Source of the DNA: Bacteroidales bacterium
GTDB lineage: Bacteria > Bacteroidota > Bacteroidia > Bacteroidales > UBA932
NCBI GenBank assembly: GCA_017415715.1
Contig: JAFQFD010000027.1
Span: 1 to 64,000, forward strand
Length of the DNA: 64,000 nt
Reading direction: 5' to 3'
The notes under the pieces are model-generated. The model was given only the letters and a program-made list of their open reading frames with translations, was not told the origin of the DNA and ran no database searches. A program made the position numbers and the translations under genes. Below are positions 7,326 through 41,933 of this stretch, one piece after another; position 1 is the stretch's first letter, and each line of letters opens with the position of its first letter.

Positions 7326-11570
<4,245 letters not shown>

Positions 11571-14943: not shown

Positions 14944-15792
14944 TTATTTCGATTTTATAACCTCCTTCATAGAACTTTCGTCAGGAGTCTCTCCGGTGAA
15001 TATTTCATATCCTGTCACGGCTTGAAGCAGGAGCCATACCTGGCCTTCTGTATATGTTGCATCAGGATTTGCATGAAGCATCTTCTGTATCAGCTCATTG
15101 TCGAATGACGGATTGCGATAATTGGCTTCAAGTATATGTTTTGGCCTGCCAGCCGCGAAATCTTCGTATGTGAGAGTGTCCAGTTCCGGAATCCTCACAG
15201 GAAGGTTGTAGATCACGATGTCAGCCTTCCTGAACTCCTCTCGGAAGCAGCTCAGCGGTTTTATCTCATCACTATATATGGTCCTGTTGAGAACGACAGT
15301 CTCCATCCCCAATGCTCTTGCTGCCGCTGCCGCCGCTTTACCCGCCCCTCCAATGCCGACTATAAGGACATGTCTCATCTGGTGTTGTTGCAGGTTTAGA
15401 AAGCGTGCTACCCCCCTGGCCGCAGGGGGAAGGAGCGCCCCGAAGGGGGCGACAGGGGTTCTTTCTAAACCTGCAACAACACCATATAGCCATTCACGGA
15501 CTCCGAGATAGTCGGAGTTGTGGGCTTTGACGCCTTCCGGAGTCTTGATCAGCAGATTAGTTGCCCCGACAAGGCTGCATTCCTCCGAGATGATGTCTGC
15601 CTTCTTGAGCGCCAGTTCCTTGAACGGAGCGGTCACATTGATTCCGTCATATTCATTCAGGAATATCTTATACGCCTCTTCGAAATCCGGCGTTTCAATC
15701 AGTTCGTACGGATATCTGCCGGCATACCCCGCCTTGAAAAGGGCAGGGGAAAGCGAATGCGCTATGGGATGTCCGATCAGACCGAATTTCAT
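14944..15792 (-). CDS. aroE: Shikimate dehydrogenase carrying an in-frame palindromic insertion
   Basis: A 282-residue AroE, the NADPH-dependent reductase of 3-dehydroshikimate. The shikimate site is intact (GHPIAHSLSP near the start, NVTAPFKE with the catalytic Lys, AHNSDYLG), as is the nucleotide-binding loop GIGGAGKAA. Residues about 103-138, between the two domains, are encoded by a 105-bp palindrome (15380-15484) and read GVVAGLERTP...RGVARFLNLQQHQ. That stretch is Pro/Ala/Arg-rich and has no counterpart in the family, whose usual length is about 250-270. The frame stays open, so the enzyme may be functional with a surface loop. The start overlaps the upstream methyltransferase stop by 4 bases. 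Confidence 0.93.
   Translation of the reverse strand: MKFGLIGHPIAHSLSPALFKAGYAGRYPYELIETPDFEEAYKIFLNEYDGINVTAPFKELALKKADIISEECSLVGATNLLIKTPEGVKAHNSDYLGVREWLYGVVAGLERTPVAPFGALLPPAARGVARFLNLQQHQMRHVLIVGIGGAGKAAAAAARALGMETVVLNRTIYSDEIKPLSCFREEFRKADIVIYNLPVRIPELDTLTYEDFAAGRPKHILEANYRNPSFDNELIQKMLHANPDATYTEGQVWLLLQAVTGYEIFTGETPDESSMKEVIKSK
15380..15484 (+). repeat. Palindromic element, copy A (inside aroE)
   Basis: A perfect 24-bp inverted repeat (15380-15403 with 15461-15484) encloses a 57-base core. The core starts CGTGCTACC and contains two hairpins: CCCCCTG-GCCG-CAGGGGG and CGCCCC-GAAG-GGGGCG. The core layout is shared with the copies at 21774, 22101 and 41800, but the arm sequence is unique to this copy. 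It lies in the coding region of aroE and is read without a stop. Confidence 0.9.
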
Positions 15793-16607
15793 GAGTTCCT
15801 TTGTCTTACTGCTTCAAACATGAGGATGGCTGCTGATACTGAGACATTCAGCGAGTCCAGCCTTCCGAGCATAGGTATCTTGATGTGGGCGTCAGCGGCC
15901 TTTCTCCATACATTTGTGAGTCCTGTCGCCTCTGTGCCCATGACAATGGCGGTTCCGCCTTTCATGTCAGTCTCATAATACCACTCGGAATCCTGCAGCT
16001 GGGCTGTATATATCTTTATGCCATTGTTCTTGAGCCATGCAATTGCCTCCTCTGAGGTCGCTGTCGCTACGGGAACGGTGAATATGGCTCCTATGCTCGA
16101 GCGGATGAGATTCGGATTGTACATGTCCGTCAGCGGGTCGCAGACGATGACGGCGTCAACGCCAGACGCGTCTGCGCTTCTGAGAACAGCTCCCAGATTG
16201 CCTGGCTTCTCTACGGATTCCAGCACGACAACGAGAGGATTCTTCTTCAGTTTCAGGCTGTCAAGAGTCATCTCCTTGCAATGCATCTCTGCAATCACGC
16301 CTTCCGTCCCGCCGCGATATGCCACCTTGTCATAAAGGTGCTGCGGTATCTCTATGATCTGGCACATCATGCCGCAGAAATTCTCTTCCACTGCTCCCAG
16401 GATGCTGTCAAACTCCTTCTCAGTGATGATATCGCGGCATATGAAGAAGGTATGCGGCTCATAGCCCGCCTCCACACAATGAATGATCTCTCGTCTTCCT
16501 TCCACGACAAAAAGCCCTTTCTTCCTTCTCTCCTTCGACTTTTCCTGAAGAGTCAGCAGCTCCTTTATCTTGGCATTCTGCGCTGATGTAATATTCTCGG
16601 TTCTCAT
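15789..16607 (-). CDS. TrmH/SpoU-family RNA 2'-O-methyltransferase
   Basis: A 272-residue protein of the SPOUT superfamily. An N-terminal substrate-binding domain (SAQNAKIKELLTLQEKSKERRKKGLFVVEGRRE, residues 8 to about 40) precedes the knotted methyltransferase domain with LESVEKPGNLGAVLRSADASG, IVMGTEATGL and LNVSVSAAILMFEA, the three SpoU motifs. It probably methylates a ribose in rRNA or tRNA; the exact site cannot be read from sequence. It overlaps aroE by 4 bases. A TATATTTG promoter element ends only 4 bases before the ATG. Confidence 0.92.
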   Translation of the reverse strand: MRTENITSAQNAKIKELLTLQEKSKERRKKGLFVVEGRREIIHCVEAGYEPHTFFICRDIITEKEFDSILGAVEENFCGMMCQIIEIPQHLYDKVAYRGGTEGVIAEMHCKEMTLDSLKLKKNPLVVVLESVEKPGNLGAVLRSADASGVDAVIVCDPLTDMYNPNLIRSSIGAIFTVPVATATSEEAIAWLKNNGIKIYTAQLQDSEWYYETDMKGGTAIVMGTEATGLTNVWRKAADAHIKIPMLGRLDSLNVSVSAAILMFEAVRQRNS

Positions 16608-16611
16608 AGTA

Positions 16612-16619
16612 CAAATATA
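16612..16619 (-). promoter_or_regulatory. Bacteroides-type -7 element, methyltransferase-aroE
   Basis: On the minus strand TATATTTG matches TAnnTTTG exactly and is followed by only TACT before the ATG of the methyltransferase (16607). Transcription would start at or next to the start codon, giving a leaderless or near-leaderless mRNA. No clear -33 TTTG was found. Confidence 0.5.
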
Positions 16620-16625
16620 ACTAAT

Positions 16626-17132
16626 TTATTCATACCAGGTCTTGTATAGGAGGTAGTGTTCGGCGTTTGCGTTGGCTTTTGCCCGGATGGTTTCCGAGCC
16701 GTCCTTGATCTTGCGGGCAGGAATGCCAGCCCATATGCCCGGCTCAAGCTTCTGGTTGGCCGGGACTACGGCTCCGGCCGCGATAATGGTTCCATCTGGA
16801 ATGATGGTGTTATCCATGACAATGGCTCCCATGCCTATGATGACGTCATTGCCTATGATGCAACCATGGACGTTGGCTCCATGCCCGATCGAGACGTCAT
16901 TGCCTATGATGCATTCCGACTGCTGATAGGTCGCATGCAGCACGGCATTGTCCTGAATGTTCACCCTGTCGCCGATGCGTATCGCTCCGACGTCTCCGCG
17001 CAGCACAGCGCCATACCACACGCTGCAGTCATCTCCGATCTCCACCGTTCCGATAATCGTCGCCGTCTCCGCCAGAAACGCGCGCTCTCCAATGACGGGC
17101 CTGTCGCTCTTGAGTTCCTTTATTATTGCCAT
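16626..17132 (-). CDS. Gamma-carbonic-anhydrase-like hexapeptide-repeat protein
   Basis: A 168-residue left-handed beta-helix protein built from hexapeptide repeats (TATIIGTVEIGDDCSVWYGAVLRGDVGAIRIGDRVNIQDNAVLH and onwards). The conserved metal-binding histidines of the gamma-CA family appear as VLHAT and SIGHGANVHGC. It is related to YrdA/PaaY proteins; it may be a zinc enzyme (carbonic anhydrase or thioesterase) but activity cannot be inferred. It lies just after the following small exported protein gene on the same strand, with a 3-base gap. Confidence 0.9.
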   Translation of the reverse strand: MAIIKELKSDRPVIGERAFLAETATIIGTVEIGDDCSVWYGAVLRGDVGAIRIGDRVNIQDNAVLHATYQQSECIIGNDVSIGHGANVHGCIIGNDVIIGMGAIVMDNTIIPDGTIIAAGAVVPANQKLEPGIWAGIPARKIKDGSETIRAKANANAEHYLLYKTWYE

Positions 17133-17135
17133 GTC

Positions 17136-17762
17136 CTATAATCTAATTCCTATTCCCGCCATGCCGAAGGTGTTGGCGGCGGATATGTTCACCTCGGCCA
17201 GACCGTAGACCCTGCCTTTGCCGAATTTGATGCCGACAGGGGCGATGTAAGGCATCGGGAACGGGAACGCGAATGCTGTGCCTATTCCTAATGCAGAGTA
17301 CATGCTGAAGCTTTCTCTTACGATCCATTTGAAGCGGACATCTGCCGAGATCGAGCCCCAGACCATGGTGCTTCTGTCGGCCAGAGAAGGCTCTGCATTC
17401 TTATCATATTCCTTCTTGCTTCCGGTTGAAGGGATTTCCGGATATTGAAGGACATCATATATGGTGAGATGTATGTTTCCCAGGGCGGAAACCTCCCATC
17501 GCTTTCCCCATGAGAATGTGTATCCGACATTCAGTCCCGGCTGATAATGTTCCTTTATGGTCTGTCCGTTCCTGGATGCTTCGATCTGCCTGTCCAGCCA
17601 AGGATATTCAGCAAGAAATACAAGGCTTGGATAGCCAGTGGTGATCTCTATGGCGTGCTGATAAGGATATTGGCGCTTGACCTTCGTCGTGTCCTGAGAT
17701 GTCTCACGGGCATTAAGGCCGGCGCAGATCAGCAGTGCAGCAATGATGAAAGTTCTTTTCAT
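17136..17762 (-). CDS. Small exported beta-barrel-like protein, unknown function
   Basis: A 208-residue protein with a Sec signal peptide (MKRTFIIAALLICAGLNA, cleavage near ARE). The mature part has alternating aromatic/hydrophobic strands (TTGYPSLVFLAEYPWL, YTFSWGKRWEVSALGNIHL, SADVRFKWIVRESF, YGLAEVNISAANTFGMAGIGIRL), which suggests a small outer-membrane barrel of about eight strands. I do not recognise the family. It is probably co-transcribed with the hexapeptide protein, 3 bases downstream. Confidence 0.75.
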   Translation of the reverse strand: MKRTFIIAALLICAGLNARETSQDTTKVKRQYPYQHAIEITTGYPSLVFLAEYPWLDRQIEASRNGQTIKEHYQPGLNVGYTFSWGKRWEVSALGNIHLTIYDVLQYPEIPSTGSKKEYDKNAEPSLADRSTMVWGSISADVRFKWIVRESFSMYSALGIGTAFAFPFPMPYIAPVGIKFGKGRVYGLAEVNISAANTFGMAGIGIRL

Positions 17763-17806
17763 GGCGCGCTATTTAAGTGTTGACTTTCCAAAGATAACAC
17801 TTAAAA

Positions 17807-17889
17807 GCACAAAATCGGTCAGTTTTGTGTTTTAGACCAGTGAAAATGACATTAAAAGCACAAAAACGACCGTTTTTGTGCTTTTAATG
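17807..17889. repeat. AT-rich double palindrome at the 3' end of lysS
   Basis: Two palindromes lie side by side. The second is perfect: 19-bp arms (17850-17868 and 17871-17889) built on AAAAGCACAAAAACG and its complement around a 2-base centre. The first, about 17807-17834, is a degenerate version (AAAGCACAAAA paired with TTTTGTGTTTT). Together they match, in inverted orientation, the pair at 21261-21348. Being 26 bases past the lysS stop they may act as a transcript-end structure. Confidence 0.8.
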
Positions 17890-17914
17890 TTGCTGCAGCT
17901 AGCAGTGAAATATC

Positions 17915-19429
17915 CTACTGATTCTTTGGCCTCATCTGAGGGAAGAAGAGAACATCCTGGATGGTAGGGGAATTGGTCATGAACATGGTCAGACGGTCGA
18001 TTCCCATTCCAAGGCCTGATGTAGGAGGCATTCCGTACTCGAGTGCGCGTACGAAGTCCATGTCGATGAACATAGCCTCGTCGTCTCCCTTGTCCTTCAG
18101 CTTGAGTTGGTCCTGGAAGCGCTCGTACTGGTCGATCGGGTCGTTCAGCTCGCTGTATGCGTTCGCAAGCTCCTTTCCGCATACGAAGAGCTCGAAACGC
18201 TCTGTGAGGTCAGGATTTGTGCGGTGGCGCTTTGTGAGCGGCGACATCTCCACAGGATAGTCTGTGATGAATGTAGGCTGCACGAGATGCTTCTCGCAGT
18301 ATTCTCCGAAGATTGCGTCTATGAGCTTGCCCTTTCCGAATGAAGGGTCAGTCTCCACATGGAGTTTCTTGCAGGTCTCGCGGAGCTCGTCCTCAGACAT
18401 GCCTGCGACATCAACTCCTGCATATTCCTTGATGGCCTCGAGGATAGGGAGGCGGCGGAACGGCGGCTTGAAGTCAACCTGGTTCTCGCCGATAGTAACC
18501 TCTGTCTTGCCGTGGAGCTTGAGAGCGATCTTCTCAAGGAGCTTCTCTACGAACTCCATCATCCAGATATAGTCCTTGTAAGCCACATAGATCTCCATGC
18601 AGGTGAACTCCGGGTTGTGGGTCTTGTCCATACCCTCGTTGCGGAAGTCCTTTGCGAACTCATATACTCCATGGTATCCGCCGACAATGAGTCTCTTGAG
18701 GTAGAGCTCGTTGGCGATGCGGAGGTAGAGAGGAATGTCGAGAGCGTTGTGGTGAGTGATGAACGGACGTGCTGTCGCACCGCCAGGGATGCTCTGGAGG
18801 ATAGGAGTCTCCACCTCAAGGCAGCCTGCCTCGTTGAAATACTCACGCATTGTAGCCACGATCTGGCTTCTCTTGATGAATGTATCACGTACCTGAGGGT
18901 TTACGATCAGGTCTACATATCTCTGTCTGTATTTGAGCTCAGGATCAGAGAATGCGTCGAACACCTCGCCGTCCTTCTCTTTCACGATAGGGAGGACGCG
19001 GAGAGACTTGCTGAGGAGTGTCAGCTCCTTGGCATGGATCGAAAGCTGGCCGGTCTTGGTGATGAAGGCGAATCCCTTGATGCCGATGATGTCACCGATG
19101 TCGAGGAGTTTCTTCCATACTGTGTTATACATGGTCTTGTCTTCACCTGGGCAGATCTCGTCGCGGTTGACATAGATCTGGATGCGGCCTGTCTCGTCCT
19201 GCAGTTCGCCGAATGATGCGGCGCCCATGATGCGCCTTGACATGATGCGGCCTGCGATGACTACATCCTGGAAGTTGCCTTTCTCCTCGTCATACTCAGC
19301 CTTCACCTGCGCAGCAGATGTGTTGATTGGGTAGAGTGGTGCCGGATAAGGCTCGATTCCGAGTTCTCTGAGCTTTGCGAGCGATTCTCTTCTGAACAGC
19401 TCCTGCTCGTTGAGGTCCATAATGCTCAT
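17915..19429 (-). CDS. lysS: Lysyl-tRNA synthetase, class II
   Basis: A 504-residue LysRS. An N-terminal anticodon-binding OB-fold (about residues 55-160, [31 protein letters not shown]) precedes the class II catalytic core: motif 1 around [11 protein letters not shown], motif 2 [20 protein letters not shown], motif 3 [16 protein letters not shown]. The length equals that of the classical bacterial enzyme. It is divergent from recJ; a TAAATTTG element on the minus strand (19467-19474) is the likely promoter. Confidence 0.98.
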
Positions 19430-19466
19430 AATTATATCTTTTAAACTGTTTATTCCAAAAATCCCA

Positions 19467-19474
19467 CAAATTTA
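19467..19474 (-). promoter_or_regulatory. Bacteroides-type -7 element for lysS
   Basis: TAAATTTG on the minus strand matches TAnnTTTG; the lysS ATG (19429) is about 37 bases downstream, giving a leader of about 30 bases. No convincing -33 element. Confidence 0.5.
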
Positions 19475-19496
19475 ATATAAATAATAAAAAAATCCA

Positions 19497-19504
19497 TATC
19501 TTTG
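19497..19504 (+). promoter_or_regulatory. Bacteroides-type -7 element for recJ
   Basis: TATCTTTG is an exact TAnnTTTG match and ends 6 bases before the recJ ATG at 19511, so the recJ transcript is predicted to begin almost at the start codon. Confidence 0.5.
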
Positions 19505-19510
19505 TATACT

Positions 19511-21247
19511 ATGGCGGTAGAAAAGATATGGAAATTCAGGGAAACGGCTGATCCTGATAATGTCAGGCAGCTTGCTTCTGAGCTGGGAGTGGATCCGGTG
19601 CTTGCGGAACTTCTGGTCCAGAGGGGAGTTCATACCTTCGAACAGGCCCGCTCATTCTTCCGCCCGAGCCTGGAAAACCTCCACGATCCGTTCCTGATGA
19701 AGGACATGGACAAGGCTGTGGAGAGAGTGCATCAGGCCGTTTCAACAGGAGAGAGGATTCTTGTATACGGAGACTATGACGTTGACGGAACCACAGCGGT
19801 CTCGCTCGTATATTCCTTCCTCCGCCGTCTGACAAAGGCTGTCGATTTCTATATTCCAGAGAGATATGACGAAGGCTATGGCGTCTCATACAAGGGCATC
19901 GACTGGGCGTCCGAAAACCGTTTCGGCCTCATAATCACTCTTGACTGTGGCATCAAGGCCAATGAAAAGGTAGAGTATGCAAGGGAGAAGGGCATAGACA
20001 TGATCATATGTGACCACCATCTTCCTGAGAACGAACTTCCGAAGGCTGTCGCAGTTTTGGATCCGAAGAGGGAAGACTGCCATTATCCTTTCGATGACCT
20101 TTCCGGATGCGGTGTGGGCTTCAAGCTTGTACAGGCATATTCACAGAAGTTCGGCATCGCTTTCGACACACTGATTCCGCTTCTTGACCTTCTCGTAGTC
20201 AGCATAGCGTCTGACCTTGTGTCTGTGACAGACGAGAACAGGGTCCTCGCTCATTTCGGTCTCAAGCAGCTCAATGTCAGCCCTCGCCAGGGACTCATGG
20301 CCATGATCCAGCTTTCGGGCCTTGAGCCTGGCCATCTGACTATTGACGACATCGTCTTCAAGATCGGCCCGCGCATCAATGCGGCCGGCCGTATGGAGAC
20401 AGGCCGCATCGCAGTGGAGCTTCTGACTGCAACTGACGCCAGGACTGCAATCAGGATCGGAACAGAGATCAACGAGCATAATAACGAAAGAAAGAACATA
20501 GACCGCCGCATCACCCAGGAAGCCCTGGAGATGGTGGAGTCGCAGCAGTGTCTTTCATACGGTAAGGCTACGATCGTATATAACCCGCAATGGCATAAGG
20601 GAGTGGTCGGAATCGTCGCCTCAAGACTTGTAGAGGCATATTACAAGCCGACGATCGTCTTCACGAAGTCTCAGGAAGGACTCGTGACAGGATCTGCACG
20701 AAGCGTACATTGCTTCGACCTTTATGGCGCCATAGAAAGCTGCGCTGACCTCCTTGAAAATTTCGGAGGCCATCTTTACGCAGCAGGTCTCACTTTGAAA
20801 GAAGAGAATCTTCCGGAGTTCTGCGAGAGGATAGAGAAGTTCATATCAGAAGCGATCATTCCTGAAATGCAGACACCTGTAGTAGAGATAGATGCAATGC
20901 TGAATTTCTCGCAGATCACGCCGAAATTCCTGCGTATCCTCAAGCAGTTCCAGCCTTTCGGCCCGGGCAACAGCATGCCGATCTTCAGGACTGACAATGT
21001 CTATGACAACGGCAGCATCCGCAAGGTGGGAGCCGAGGGTGGACACCTCAAGCTCGAACTCATCCAGGAGTCGCAGCCATACCACCACATATCGGCAATA
21101 GCCTTCAACATGGCGGACTACTTTGAGAACATCAAGGCCGGCAATCCGGTGGATGTCTGCTATTCAATTGTAGAGAATTATTACAGAGGCACAGCGAACA
21201 CTCAGCTCCGCATCAAAGACATCCGCGAGCGCGACGAGATGATCTGA
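19511..21247 (+). CDS. recJ: Single-stranded-DNA-specific exonuclease RecJ
   Basis: A 578-residue DHH-superfamily 5'-3' exonuclease acting in recombination and repair. Metal-binding motifs are YGDYDVDGTTA (about residues 87-97), ITLDCGIK, and ICDHHLPENELPKAVAVLDPKR (about 160-182). The DHHA1 region has the KGVVGIVASRL and GGHLYAAGLTL motifs, and a C-terminal OB-like domain follows. A TTG at 19502 extends the frame by 3 codons, but it lies inside the promoter element, so the ATG at 19511 is preferred. It is divergent from lysS. Confidence 0.96.
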   Translation: MAVEKIWKFRETADPDNVRQLASELGVDPVLAELLVQRGVHTFEQARSFFRPSLENLHDPFLMKDMDKAVERVHQAVSTGERILVYGDYDVDGTTAVSLVYSFLRRLTKAVDFYIPERYDEGYGVSYKGIDWASENRFGLIITLDCGIKANEKVEYAREKGIDMIICDHHLPENELPKAVAVLDPKREDCHYPFDDLSGCGVGFKLVQAYSQKFGIAFDTLIPLLDLLVVSIASDLVSVTDENRVLAHFGLKQLNVSPRQGLMAMIQLSGLEPGHLTIDDIVFKIGPRINAAGRMETGRIAVELLTATDARTAIRIGTEINEHNNERKNIDRRITQEALEMVESQQCLSYGKATIVYNPQWHKGVVGIVASRLVEAYYKPTIVFTKSQEGLVTGSARSVHCFDLYGAIESCADLLENFGGHLYAAGLTLKEENLPEFCERIEKFISEAIIPEMQTPVVEIDAMLNFSQITPKFLRILKQFQPFGPGNSMPIFRTDNVYDNGSIRKVGAEGGHLKLELIQESQPYHHISAIAFNMADYFENIKAGNPVDVCYSIVENYYRGTANTQLRIKDIRERDEMI

Positions 21248-21260
21248 CCAACATGTTTAA

Positions 21261-21348
21261 AGTAAAAGCACAAAAACCCACGTTTTTGTGCTTTTAACTT
21301 AGTTTTCCCCGGTCCAAAACACAAATAAGCCCCTTTTTGTGCTTTTAA
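21261..21348. repeat. AT-rich double palindrome at the 3' end of recJ
   Basis: TAAAAGCACAAAAAC (about 21263-21277) pairs with GTTTTTGTGCTTTTA (about 21282-21296). A second, degenerate palindrome follows (AAAACACAAA near 21316 with TTTTTGTGCTTTT near 21334). Order and spacing are the reverse complement of the unit at 17807-17889. The rest of the gap up to aroK (21349-21444) has only short GCTTCGC/GCGAAGC repeats. Confidence 0.75.
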
Positions 21349-21444
21349 ATCCCGAAGCCTATGGTACTGCTCTGAGAAGCGCTTCGCTACTTGAATTCTT
21401 TGTCTATCGCTGTTTGGGGAACGGCGAAGCGGATAAGAACCTCT

Positions 21445-22089
21445 TCAGGAGAGCTTCGCTGTGATGGAGATGATATCTGAAGCTATGGCTTCGATTGATC
21501 TGCCGTCCGTGTCGACCGTGACGTGGGAGGTCTTTTCATATGTGGCTGCGCGCTGGTCCATCAGCGTCTCGATGCGGGTCCGGAGGTCCGCATCTGCGAG
21601 CATCGGCCTTCCGGCTGCCTCTCCGGCAAGATGCTCAACAAGAGTATCAACGGAAGCCCTGAGATAGACACACAAAGTCTTCTCCCTGACCATCAGAGCA
21701 CAAGCCTCAGTCATCACAGCCCCACCTCCCAATGCTAAAACGATGTCATTGTTGGTGTGTCTTTCTGATTCAGGGTGGCATGGAGAGGGTTTGGAAACCG
21801 TGCTACCCCTCTGGCCGCAGAGGGAGGGGCCCATCGCGATTCGCGATGGGAGGGATTGTTTCCAAACCCTCTCCATGCCACCATCTTTCAAAACTGCCTT
21901 CAACGCTTCCAGTTCCATCTGTCGGAACGCCGCTTCTCCTTCTGTGGCGAAGATTTCCGGGATGCTTCTTCCCTCGCGTTCTGCAATCACATCATCAAGG
22001 TCAATAAAAGAGCAGCAGAGCAGCTCCGAAAGTCGCCTTCCGACACTGCTCTTGCCACATCCCATAAATCCAGTCAATGATATGATCAT
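21445..22089 (-). CDS. aroK: Shikimate kinase carrying an in-frame palindromic insertion
   Basis: A 214-residue AroK, which phosphorylates shikimate with ATP. The Walker A loop GFMGCGKSS is at residues 7-15, the shikimate-binding aspartate region FIDLDDVIAEREG follows, and LALGGGAVMT gives the glycine triad. The family is about 170-180 residues. The excess is explained by residues about 70-106, encoded by a palindrome at 21774-21882 and reading GGMERVW...SKPSPCHP, placed just before the NDIVLALGGG strand. The frame is maintained. The position is close to the shikimate-binding region, so activity could be affected. Confidence 0.92.
   Translation of the reverse strand: MIISLTGFMGCGKSSVGRRLSELLCCSFIDLDDVIAEREGRSIPEIFATEGEAAFRQMELEALKAVLKDGGMERVWKQSLPSRIAMGPSLCGQRGSTVSKPSPCHPESERHTNNDIVLALGGGAVMTEACALMVREKTLCVYLRASVDTLVEHLAGEAAGRPMLADADLRTRIETLMDQRAATYEKTSHVTVDTDGRSIEAIASDIISITAKLS
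21774..21882 (+). repeat. Palindromic element, copy B (inside aroK)
   Basis: A perfect 25-bp inverted repeat (21774-21798 with 21858-21882) encloses a 59-base core that starts CGTGCTACCCC like copy A. Hairpin 1 is CCCTCTG-GCCG-CAGAGGG. Hairpin 2 is CCCATCGC...GCGATGGG. The core carries the blocks GGGAGGGGCCC and GGGAGGGATT also seen in copies C and D. The arm sequence is unrelated to the other copies. Confidence 0.9.
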
Positions 22090-22100
22090 AGTTTACTTCT

Positions 22101-22209
22101 TTATTATGATGATGTTTTAAAAACCGTGGCCGCCCATGGCCTCGTGAATGGGAGGGGCCCGCCGCAAAGCGGTGGGAGGGATTAAGTTTTTAAAACATTA
22201 TCATAATAA
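22101..22209 (+). repeat. Palindromic element, copy C (between parC and aroK)
   Basis: 24-base arms (22101-22124 and 22186-22209) pair with one G-T and are very AT-rich, unlike the arms of copies A and B. The 61-base core starts CGTGGCCGC. Hairpin 1 is CCCAT...ATGGG and hairpin 2 is CCCGCCGC-AAA-GCGGTGGG, followed by GGGAGGGATT. It fills nearly the whole 128-bp gap between parC and aroK. Confidence 0.88.
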
Positions 22210-41799: not shown

Positions 41800-41933
41800 G
41801 TGGTGGCAGAGTAAGTTTGGATGGTGTGGCCGCCCGCGGCCTCATGAGCGGGAGGGGCCCGACGCGAAGCGTTGGGAGGGACGAAGTCGGAACTTGTTCC
41901 GACGAAGCCAAGCCAAACTTACTCAGTCACCAC
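41800..41933 (+). repeat. Palindromic element, copy D (degenerate, between beta-galactosidase and glyA)
   Basis: Arms 41800-41824 and 41908-41933 pair imperfectly (shared core AAGTTTGG / CCAAACTT with flanking mismatches). The core reads TGTGGCCGC with hairpin 1 CCCGC...GCGGG, the block GGGAGGGGCCC, hairpin 2 CCCGACGC-GAA-GCGTTGGG, then GGGAGGGA. An extra hairpin (GTCGGAAC-TT-GTTCCGAC, 41886-41903) precedes the right arm and is absent from the other copies. The arm mismatches suggest this is an older copy. Confidence 0.82.

Follow-up and report, generated by a model that had tools for sequence, protein, structure and literature searches.

The 64,000-nucleotide window analysed here (positions 1 to 64,000 of contig JAFQFD010000027.1, assembly GCA_017415715.1, from a Bacteroidales bacterium) carries four copies of a palindromic element, a unit of about 110 bases in which a folded centre common to the copies is closed by long paired arms that are usually specific to the site. 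All four are read on the plus strand. Copy 1 (15380..15484, arms 15380-15403 and 15461-15484) lies inside aroE, the shikimate dehydrogenase gene on the minus strand (14944..15792), and copy 2 (21774..21882, arms 21774-21798 and 21858-21882) inside aroK, the shikimate kinase gene on the same strand (21445..22089). Both reading frames stay open through the element, and the residence of these two copies within protein-coding genes had gone unmentioned in an earlier, sequence-only reading of the window. Copy 3 (22101..22209, arms 22101-22124 and 22186-22209) sits 11 bp before the aroK start codon. Copy 4 (41800..41933) has an extra helix, and its arms (~41800-41820 and ~41913-41933) are related to those of other copies of its type.

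Read directly, the outer stem of copy 1 comprises 24 uninterrupted pairs around a spacer of 57 nt, that of copy 2 25 pairs around 59 nt, and that of copy 3 24 pairs, including one G·T, around 61 nt, which bears out the earlier description of three intact copies with stems of 24-25 bp and cores of 57-61 bases. The same three copies were recovered independently as inverted pairs I2, I5 and I8 in a window-wide survey, and chance is ruled out for perfect stems this long at such spacing. The sequence blocks said to be common to the copies are not common to all of them, as copy 1 lacks both GGGAGGGGCCC and GGGAGGGATT. Allowing one mismatch, GGGAGGGGCCC occurs in the window at 21822, 22150 and 41850 only; because 4 of 100 shuffles reach three or more matches, against three in the window, this block alone proves little. 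Copies 1 and 2 carry another common block (family D4). The fourth copy had been called degenerate, a term that covers part of the case: beyond any decay it has its extra helix, and its arms recur in other genomic copies.

The copies fall into three types. The core of type A, to which copies 1 and 2 belong, reads CGTGCTACCCC..TGGCCGCAG; that of type B, represented by copy 3, reads GTGGCCGCCC..GGGAGGGGCCC..GGGAGGGAT. Type C is marked by an added helix and by related arms (..GGGTAAGTTTGG or close variants), and includes copy 4 of the window along with two copies from genome G021 that have an identical printed arm. We also noted a long variant of type B with a block of extra core helices, at L020/L021 (G000 C2:34972-35109) and L019 (C8:15410).

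Types A and B differ in where they sit. We tabulated 91 of 97 element matches and dropped nine with a stem below 18 nt (type C, short or decayed copies), leaving 82 rows in which orthologues are counted separately. Among 33 type A rows, 27 span an open reading frame, three lie near a start and three near a stop; type B has 36 of its 49 rows close to a start codon, four close to a stop, six spanning an open reading frame and three in none of these positions. The rule applied is mechanical, and some spans (L005, L011) look like upstream extensions. Open frames number 91 of 162 in type A and 64 of 246 in type B, which fits selection having sorted the two types.

In the source genome the genes hosting type A copies are aroE, aroK, lpxB, hutI and tilS, and all of these, together with a partial miaA from G026, read open through the element. 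NCBIfam cut-offs are passed by lpxB, hutI and tilS, whereas aroE, aroK and miaA match their own families below the curated cut-offs. For aroE the best matches are shikimate dehydrogenases, again below those cut-offs; most shikimate kinase profiles match aroK as two stretches, and the best stretch displayed either ends at residue 66-71 or begins at 112-113. The TilS of G000 (L003) also holds the stretches HCEERSDVAI and VIPDLIGDP, which we take to be translations of other dispersed palindromic repeats. Likewise, rnfC, rnfD and pyrF are labels that we presume from protein sequences, with no database match behind them.

Judging from covariation, the type B core is predicted to form, in order along the plus strand, an H-type pseudoknot and then a hairpin. 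A GGCC-centred stem (S1) closes a loop whose CCCGT pairs with a downstream ACGGG (S2). In copy 3 the pseudoknot occupies 22125..22152 on the plus strand, with S1 pairing 22125-22131 with 22138-22144 (one T-T mismatch) and S2 pairing 22133-22137 with 22148-22152; hairpin P3 follows on the same strand at 22158..22176 (22158-22165 with 22169-22176). In a set of 25 distinct fragments, hand-picked for variety, 99.3% of 275 pseudoknot cells are paired against 88.3% in shuffles, cells with a double change number 33 against 6.8, and the covariation score is 0.384 against 0.148; slid controls pair at 23-55%. In a wider set, in which 168 of 203 core loci parsed and 35 did not, the first variable pair of S2 takes four Watson-Crick types; conserved pairs in this set are partly built in because the parser required parts of the motif. 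Among 13 copies of the source genome, 13 of 17 stem pairs have changed on both sides. G·U cells are few in the 25-fragment set (2 of 275), so that action as single-stranded DNA is as possible as action as RNA; the parsed pseudoknots contain 43 G·U against 21 A·C. A search of the window against Rfam 15 returned three tRNAs only, other matches lying far below gathering scores.

The family is real, and larger than the sequence-only reading stated. A covariance model (R1) built from the 13 source-genome copies finds 19 matches there (E <=0.01) and, at the same threshold, matches in 46 of 61 sampled genomes of the source genus, a rumen-Bacteroidales group that we label Cryptobacteroides-like, the highest load in any one of them being 37. 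A dispersed family with a constant structured core had been proposed and a covariance-model scan of this genome and its relatives suggested, and the scan finds just such a family, widespread in the genus. Across the order, at the stricter E <=1e-5, three of 149 genomes match, that is, two of 148 besides the source genome: one from another genus of the family and one from another family. This sample includes at least one further genome of the source genus, without a match. DNA searches of the source genome gave 8 matches for copy 1 and 16 for copy 3, including single arms matching their own partners. The B-core pattern is found in at least 80 contigs, and those listed are all Bacteroidales metagenome-assembled genomes, many from ruminant guts, with two titled Candidatus Cryptobacteroides intestinavium and Candidatus Cacconaster scatequi; these origins and titles are the reason for our label. 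Carriage by viruses was considered and rejected, as one element pattern had no exact match in viral_contigs. Several contigs stop within about 120 bases of an element (G021 C40, C52 and C1; G007 C31; G210 C62; G136 C21), and fragmented genomes therefore probably have more copies than were counted.

How do arms behave relative to cores? Where two copies in the same genome have cores 0-1 nt apart (n=11), the arms exceed the 5% background in three pairs and are unrelated in eight. Four same-genome pairs have identical cores; arm identity is 0.54-0.60 in three of them, with a shuffled mean of 0.645, and 0.89 in the fourth (L242/L244 of G007). Pairs with cores at least 85% alike (n=124) average 0.667, and gapped alignment inflates all of these same-genome identities. 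By comparison, the 11 pairs that match one site across close species (flanks 93-99%) have arms identical at 393 of 400 positions and cores at 619 of 635. Between distant species (flanks <86%), 31 of 57 same-site pairs, which are not independent, have arms above the 5% background; rnfC supplies 18 of the 31, and 13 of 39 remain without it. Both orientations of the element occur, even at one and the same site, and in G007 an extra base is common to 8 of 10 B cores wherever they are located.

Across 67 distinct copies the arms retain a weak consensus that fades outward from the core, from 0.70 bit at position 9 through ~0.3 at positions 12 and 15 to ~0 at the outermost positions. Its inner part is G-rich and strand-asymmetric (GAGG in 20 of 67, CCTC in 1 of 67), and this asymmetry leads us to reject plain random target sequence as the whole story of the arms. 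The earlier proposal that arms vary from copy to copy around a constant centre thus stands for most A and B copies, subject to this inner G-rich consensus, and fails for type C, that of copy 4, whose arms are common to copies. Conservation of arms across genomic copies is, correspondingly, found in type C and mostly not in A and B, where 3 of 11 near-identical-core pairs lie above background. We infer from the arm data an old, largely vertical residence, in which cores are kept alike within genomes and arms drift as paired units.

Comparison between related species shows sites that are filled in some and empty in others, as had been anticipated for a mobile element. A site 5' of a pyrF-like gene is filled in G000 and G066 and empty in G026 (flanks 92-95%), where, besides both arms, another ~10-12 bases are missing on either side. 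G000 has no element at the L224 site of G066 (95/92%) but TGCTTTGCA instead; G026 has none at the L016 site of G000 (96/85%), and TCTCCAT, present twice in the filled site, occurs once there. G129 lacks copy 3 (80/85%), and G136 lacks the rnfC copy that G032 has (92/90%). The rnfC site as a whole is filled in eight species, empty in G123, G059, G136, G056, G039 and more, and holds a different hairpin in G007. These comparisons indicate that both arms come and go with the element, outermost bases aside. Such empty sites could be ancestral or deletion scars; one further comparison (L010 in G026) is uninformative because the site reads N. Many sites are common to several species, so that much of the family seems inherited in place.

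Some stems extend into conserved host codons, with an inverted copy on the far side, at rnfC (G032), aroE (G007) and hutI (G066); fold-back copying that extends the palindrome would explain this. At hutI, moreover, the arms have changed and the core is inverted between G066 and G000.

At L016 the repeated TCTCCAT is one possible target site duplication. Other palindromes were noted as well. The L432 place holds a different palindrome in G026 (C22), with core ATGCCACCCCC..GGGGGTGCC and its own arms, a B element in G066 and nothing in G000; the same palindrome type lies in the left flank of L233 (G026 C62). In the window itself a second palindrome pair (TAAAAGCACAAAAACG..CGTTTTTGTGCTTTTAA) occupies 17801-17887 and 21263-21348, each member comprising two hairpins and the two being 81% complementary to one another. 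The lpxB loop of G103 (L060) contains a complex insertion, a direct repeat of ~32 bp plus an inverted copy of the host codons GCCACTATAAGG, and that of G032 (L061) a 14 bp inverted host duplication with one mismatch, a short loop and no core.

We observe, then, a core that stays constant, arms that pair but are specific to the copy, a pseudoknot with compensatory changes, type A copies lying in frame within genes, and sites that related species share in some cases and leave empty in others. The account that we tentatively favour, with somewhat less than even confidence, is that the family is a small, non-autonomous mobile element resembling Rickettsia palindromic elements (RPE), recognised by its fold, whose arms are kept complementary by arm-to-arm copying. 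The core (in type B, the compact pseudoknot and its hairpin) would be the part recognised and held constant, while the flanking stem would be required solely as a paired stem, leaving arm sequence free. Arms would stay complementary because one is copied from the other, by fold-back synthesis or template switching at replication, which would let both arms of a site drift together and, now and then, extend into the host sequence alongside. Selection and exchange between copies within a genome would keep the cores alike. Type A, with more frames open, would survive in genes, where translation would turn it into an extra loop, whereas type B, having fewer open frames, would survive between genes.

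Several results weigh against this account. No movement was observed, and target duplication does not exceed that of swapped controls (5.60 versus 5.31, standard deviation 0.16, 56 distinct elements), so that target site duplication as a general feature gains no support. Two of five pseudoknot measures fail, pairs with a double change (5 versus 3.8 in shuffles, 115/500) and pair types (9 versus 10.5, 482/500) showing no excess. Over all 59 flank-matched pairs, of which those with a flank below ~0.78 are doubtful orthologues, arms are less alike (0.815) than cores (0.906) or flanks (0.850), and may therefore simply be less constrained. In 44 of 57 distant same-site pairs the closest core comes from elsewhere in one of the two genomes, which would speak for exchange of cores within a genome, but the tally is biased towards paralogues, several of which compete with a single orthologue, and could also reflect repeated insertion at favoured sites. 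An apparent arm excess of G·U over A·C (52 versus 20 in 91 rows that included orthologues and ill-aligned type C rows) shrinks to 27 versus 17 among 67 distinct loci (p=0.17); we accordingly reject it as a sign of RNA-level selection, and RNA action is not established. The difference at hutI between G066 and G000 is the clearest hint of arm-to-arm copying, a process that we did not see directly.

The remaining evidence concerns the enzyme. The contig of the window gave no Y1 transposase or reverse transcriptase match at E <=0.001, in line with the earlier remark that no transposase lies nearby. Across the 61 genomes, 41 have both Y1 (PF01797) and the element, five the element only, five Y1 only and ten neither, an association (Fisher's test, p=6e-5) that is uncorrected for phylogeny; the corresponding counts in the 25 genomes at least 90% complete are 19, 2, 0 and 4 (p=0.001). 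None of 20 fetched Y1 loci, from 13 element-bearing genomes, carries the element within ~1.2-1.6 kb on either side (R1, E <=5), which speaks, as far as these 20 go, against RAYT genes bearing it. Several of the 20 are flanked by other palindromes. Spread driven by reverse transcriptase is rejected, RVT_1 being present in 17 of the 46 genomes with the element and in 3 of the 15 without it (p=0.34). A check for an enzyme that tracks the element, proposed at the outset, thus gives co-occurrence for Y1, without correction for phylogeny, and no association for reverse transcriptase. Mobilisation in trans is best kept as a possibility: Y1 co-occurs with the element yet has none beside the 20 genes examined, and reverse transcriptase does not track it. 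The sole candidate mobiliser with any support would be a REP-associated Y1 transposase that acts in trans.

One alternative dispenses with any special arm mechanism. Imagine an old, ordinary MITE- or RPE-like family that had common arms at insertion, with later compensatory divergence of the arms and with cores conserved by selection or gene conversion. We regard this as possible, if on the unlikely side. The weak shared arm consensus that decays away from the core is what it would predict, as are the sites common to several species, some with related arms, the greater divergence of arms than of cores over the flank-matched pairs, the identical-core pair whose arms are 0.89 alike, and the type C copies with shared arms. 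However, arms do not evolve faster than cores in the 11 closest same-site pairs, so that full arm divergence at identical cores would need strong non-allelic conversion of cores.

A further proposition strikes us as unlikely: recognition of the mobile hairpin would depend on its folded, pseudoknotted core only, and with each insertion, or later, the hairpin would write its arms anew by copying neighbouring or opposite-arm sequence. If it were true, every copy would end with a private near-perfect palindrome. We know of no REP, RPE or MITE element for which arm rewriting is the mode of spread.

We are more doubtful about a scenario in which insertion itself makes the arms out of the target, one being host sequence and the other its inverted copy by fold-back synthesis, so that each site gains its own palindrome. 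Near-identical cores with mostly unrelated arms agree with it. At rnfC, the outer AGAGGCAGGG of the arm is native in the empty G059 orthologue, and species with the site filled carry it again, inverted, after the stop codon; in G032 the other arm is a mirror of that genome's own ATTATTCG codons, and a mismatch lies further inward. Counts of linker length in empty orthologues point both ways: the native linker of aroE fits one host arm, whereas those of lpxB, aroK and miaA fit two inserted arms better. Against this scenario, empty sites with flanks 80-96% alike, in G026 (the pyrF-like site and L016), G000 (L224), G129 (copy 3) and G136 (rnfC), lack both arms but for a few outermost bases, although these could be deletions, and the G-rich strand asymmetry of the arms (GAGG in 20 of 67 copies, CCTC in one) is not expected of target sequence. 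Finally, a cis-acting structured RNA, a leader or processing element recruited to many genes, would suit the pseudoknot covariation and the 36 of 49 type B rows near a start codon, but is very improbable given that type A copies lie within coding regions of no relation to one another, that the element is found in both orientations, even at a single site, that occupied sites are empty in relatives, and that no Rfam family scores at gathering level there.

Returning to an RPE-like element recognised by its fold, how does it compare with known systems? A literature search, mostly beyond subscription journals, found no such element described for Bacteroidota in the portions of text available. According to PMC3733652, Bacteroidetes are one of the phyla in which CGTC-tagged palindromic repeats occur, and these have no transposase dedicated to them; they differ in being short, tagged with CGTC and endowed with family-specific stems. 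A CGTC-like hairpin (GCCACGTCGTCCTTCGGACTCCTCGCAATGACG) stands beside a degenerate element 5' of aroK in G066 (L145, ~8950-9000), and the window contains no match to it at up to three mismatches. Like REP/BIME sequences with their RAYT transposases, the present elements are dispersed hairpins, and 41 of the 46 element-bearing genomes sampled have Y1 (PF01797); unlike them, they have a longer stem and none was seen beside the 20 Y1 genes examined. With MITEs they share small size, multiple copies, palindromic form and the lack of a transposase of their own, but the outer arm positions of types A and B hold ~0 bits in 67 distinct copies, leaving no conserved terminal inverted repeats, and target duplication is not above control. 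Nematomorpha mitochondria offer coding palindromes whose arms are kept identical while sequence and length vary between species, with template switching or conversion named as possible causes in the part of PMC6649704 available. The likeness is in long inverted repeats within genes; the difference is that those are mitochondrial and, from what that source sets out, apparently without a shared core family.

RPE families share their arms from copy to copy. Here the A and B arms mostly differ around a shared core, type C alone matching the shared-arm feature, and the present family also has a pseudoknot and belongs to a different phylum. The likeness lies in residence: Rickettsia palindromic elements are inserted in frame in genes for functional proteins (PMC6649704 and PMC3733652, in the parts available), as 27 of 33 type A rows span an open reading frame here, and they are described in the former as losing repeat identity over time. 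A shared core with differing long arms is unusual among known bacterial repeats. Ours would amount to the invasion of a rumen lineage's housekeeping genes by an RPE-like element, its two core types seemingly sorted by translatability. A constant folded core set against site-specific paired arms would offer a way of testing how palindromes arise and persist in bacterial chromosomes, and the separation of core from arm bears on what a fold-recognising mobility enzyme needs. In behaviour, then, the family is RPE-like, with types A and B departing from the shared-arm feature.

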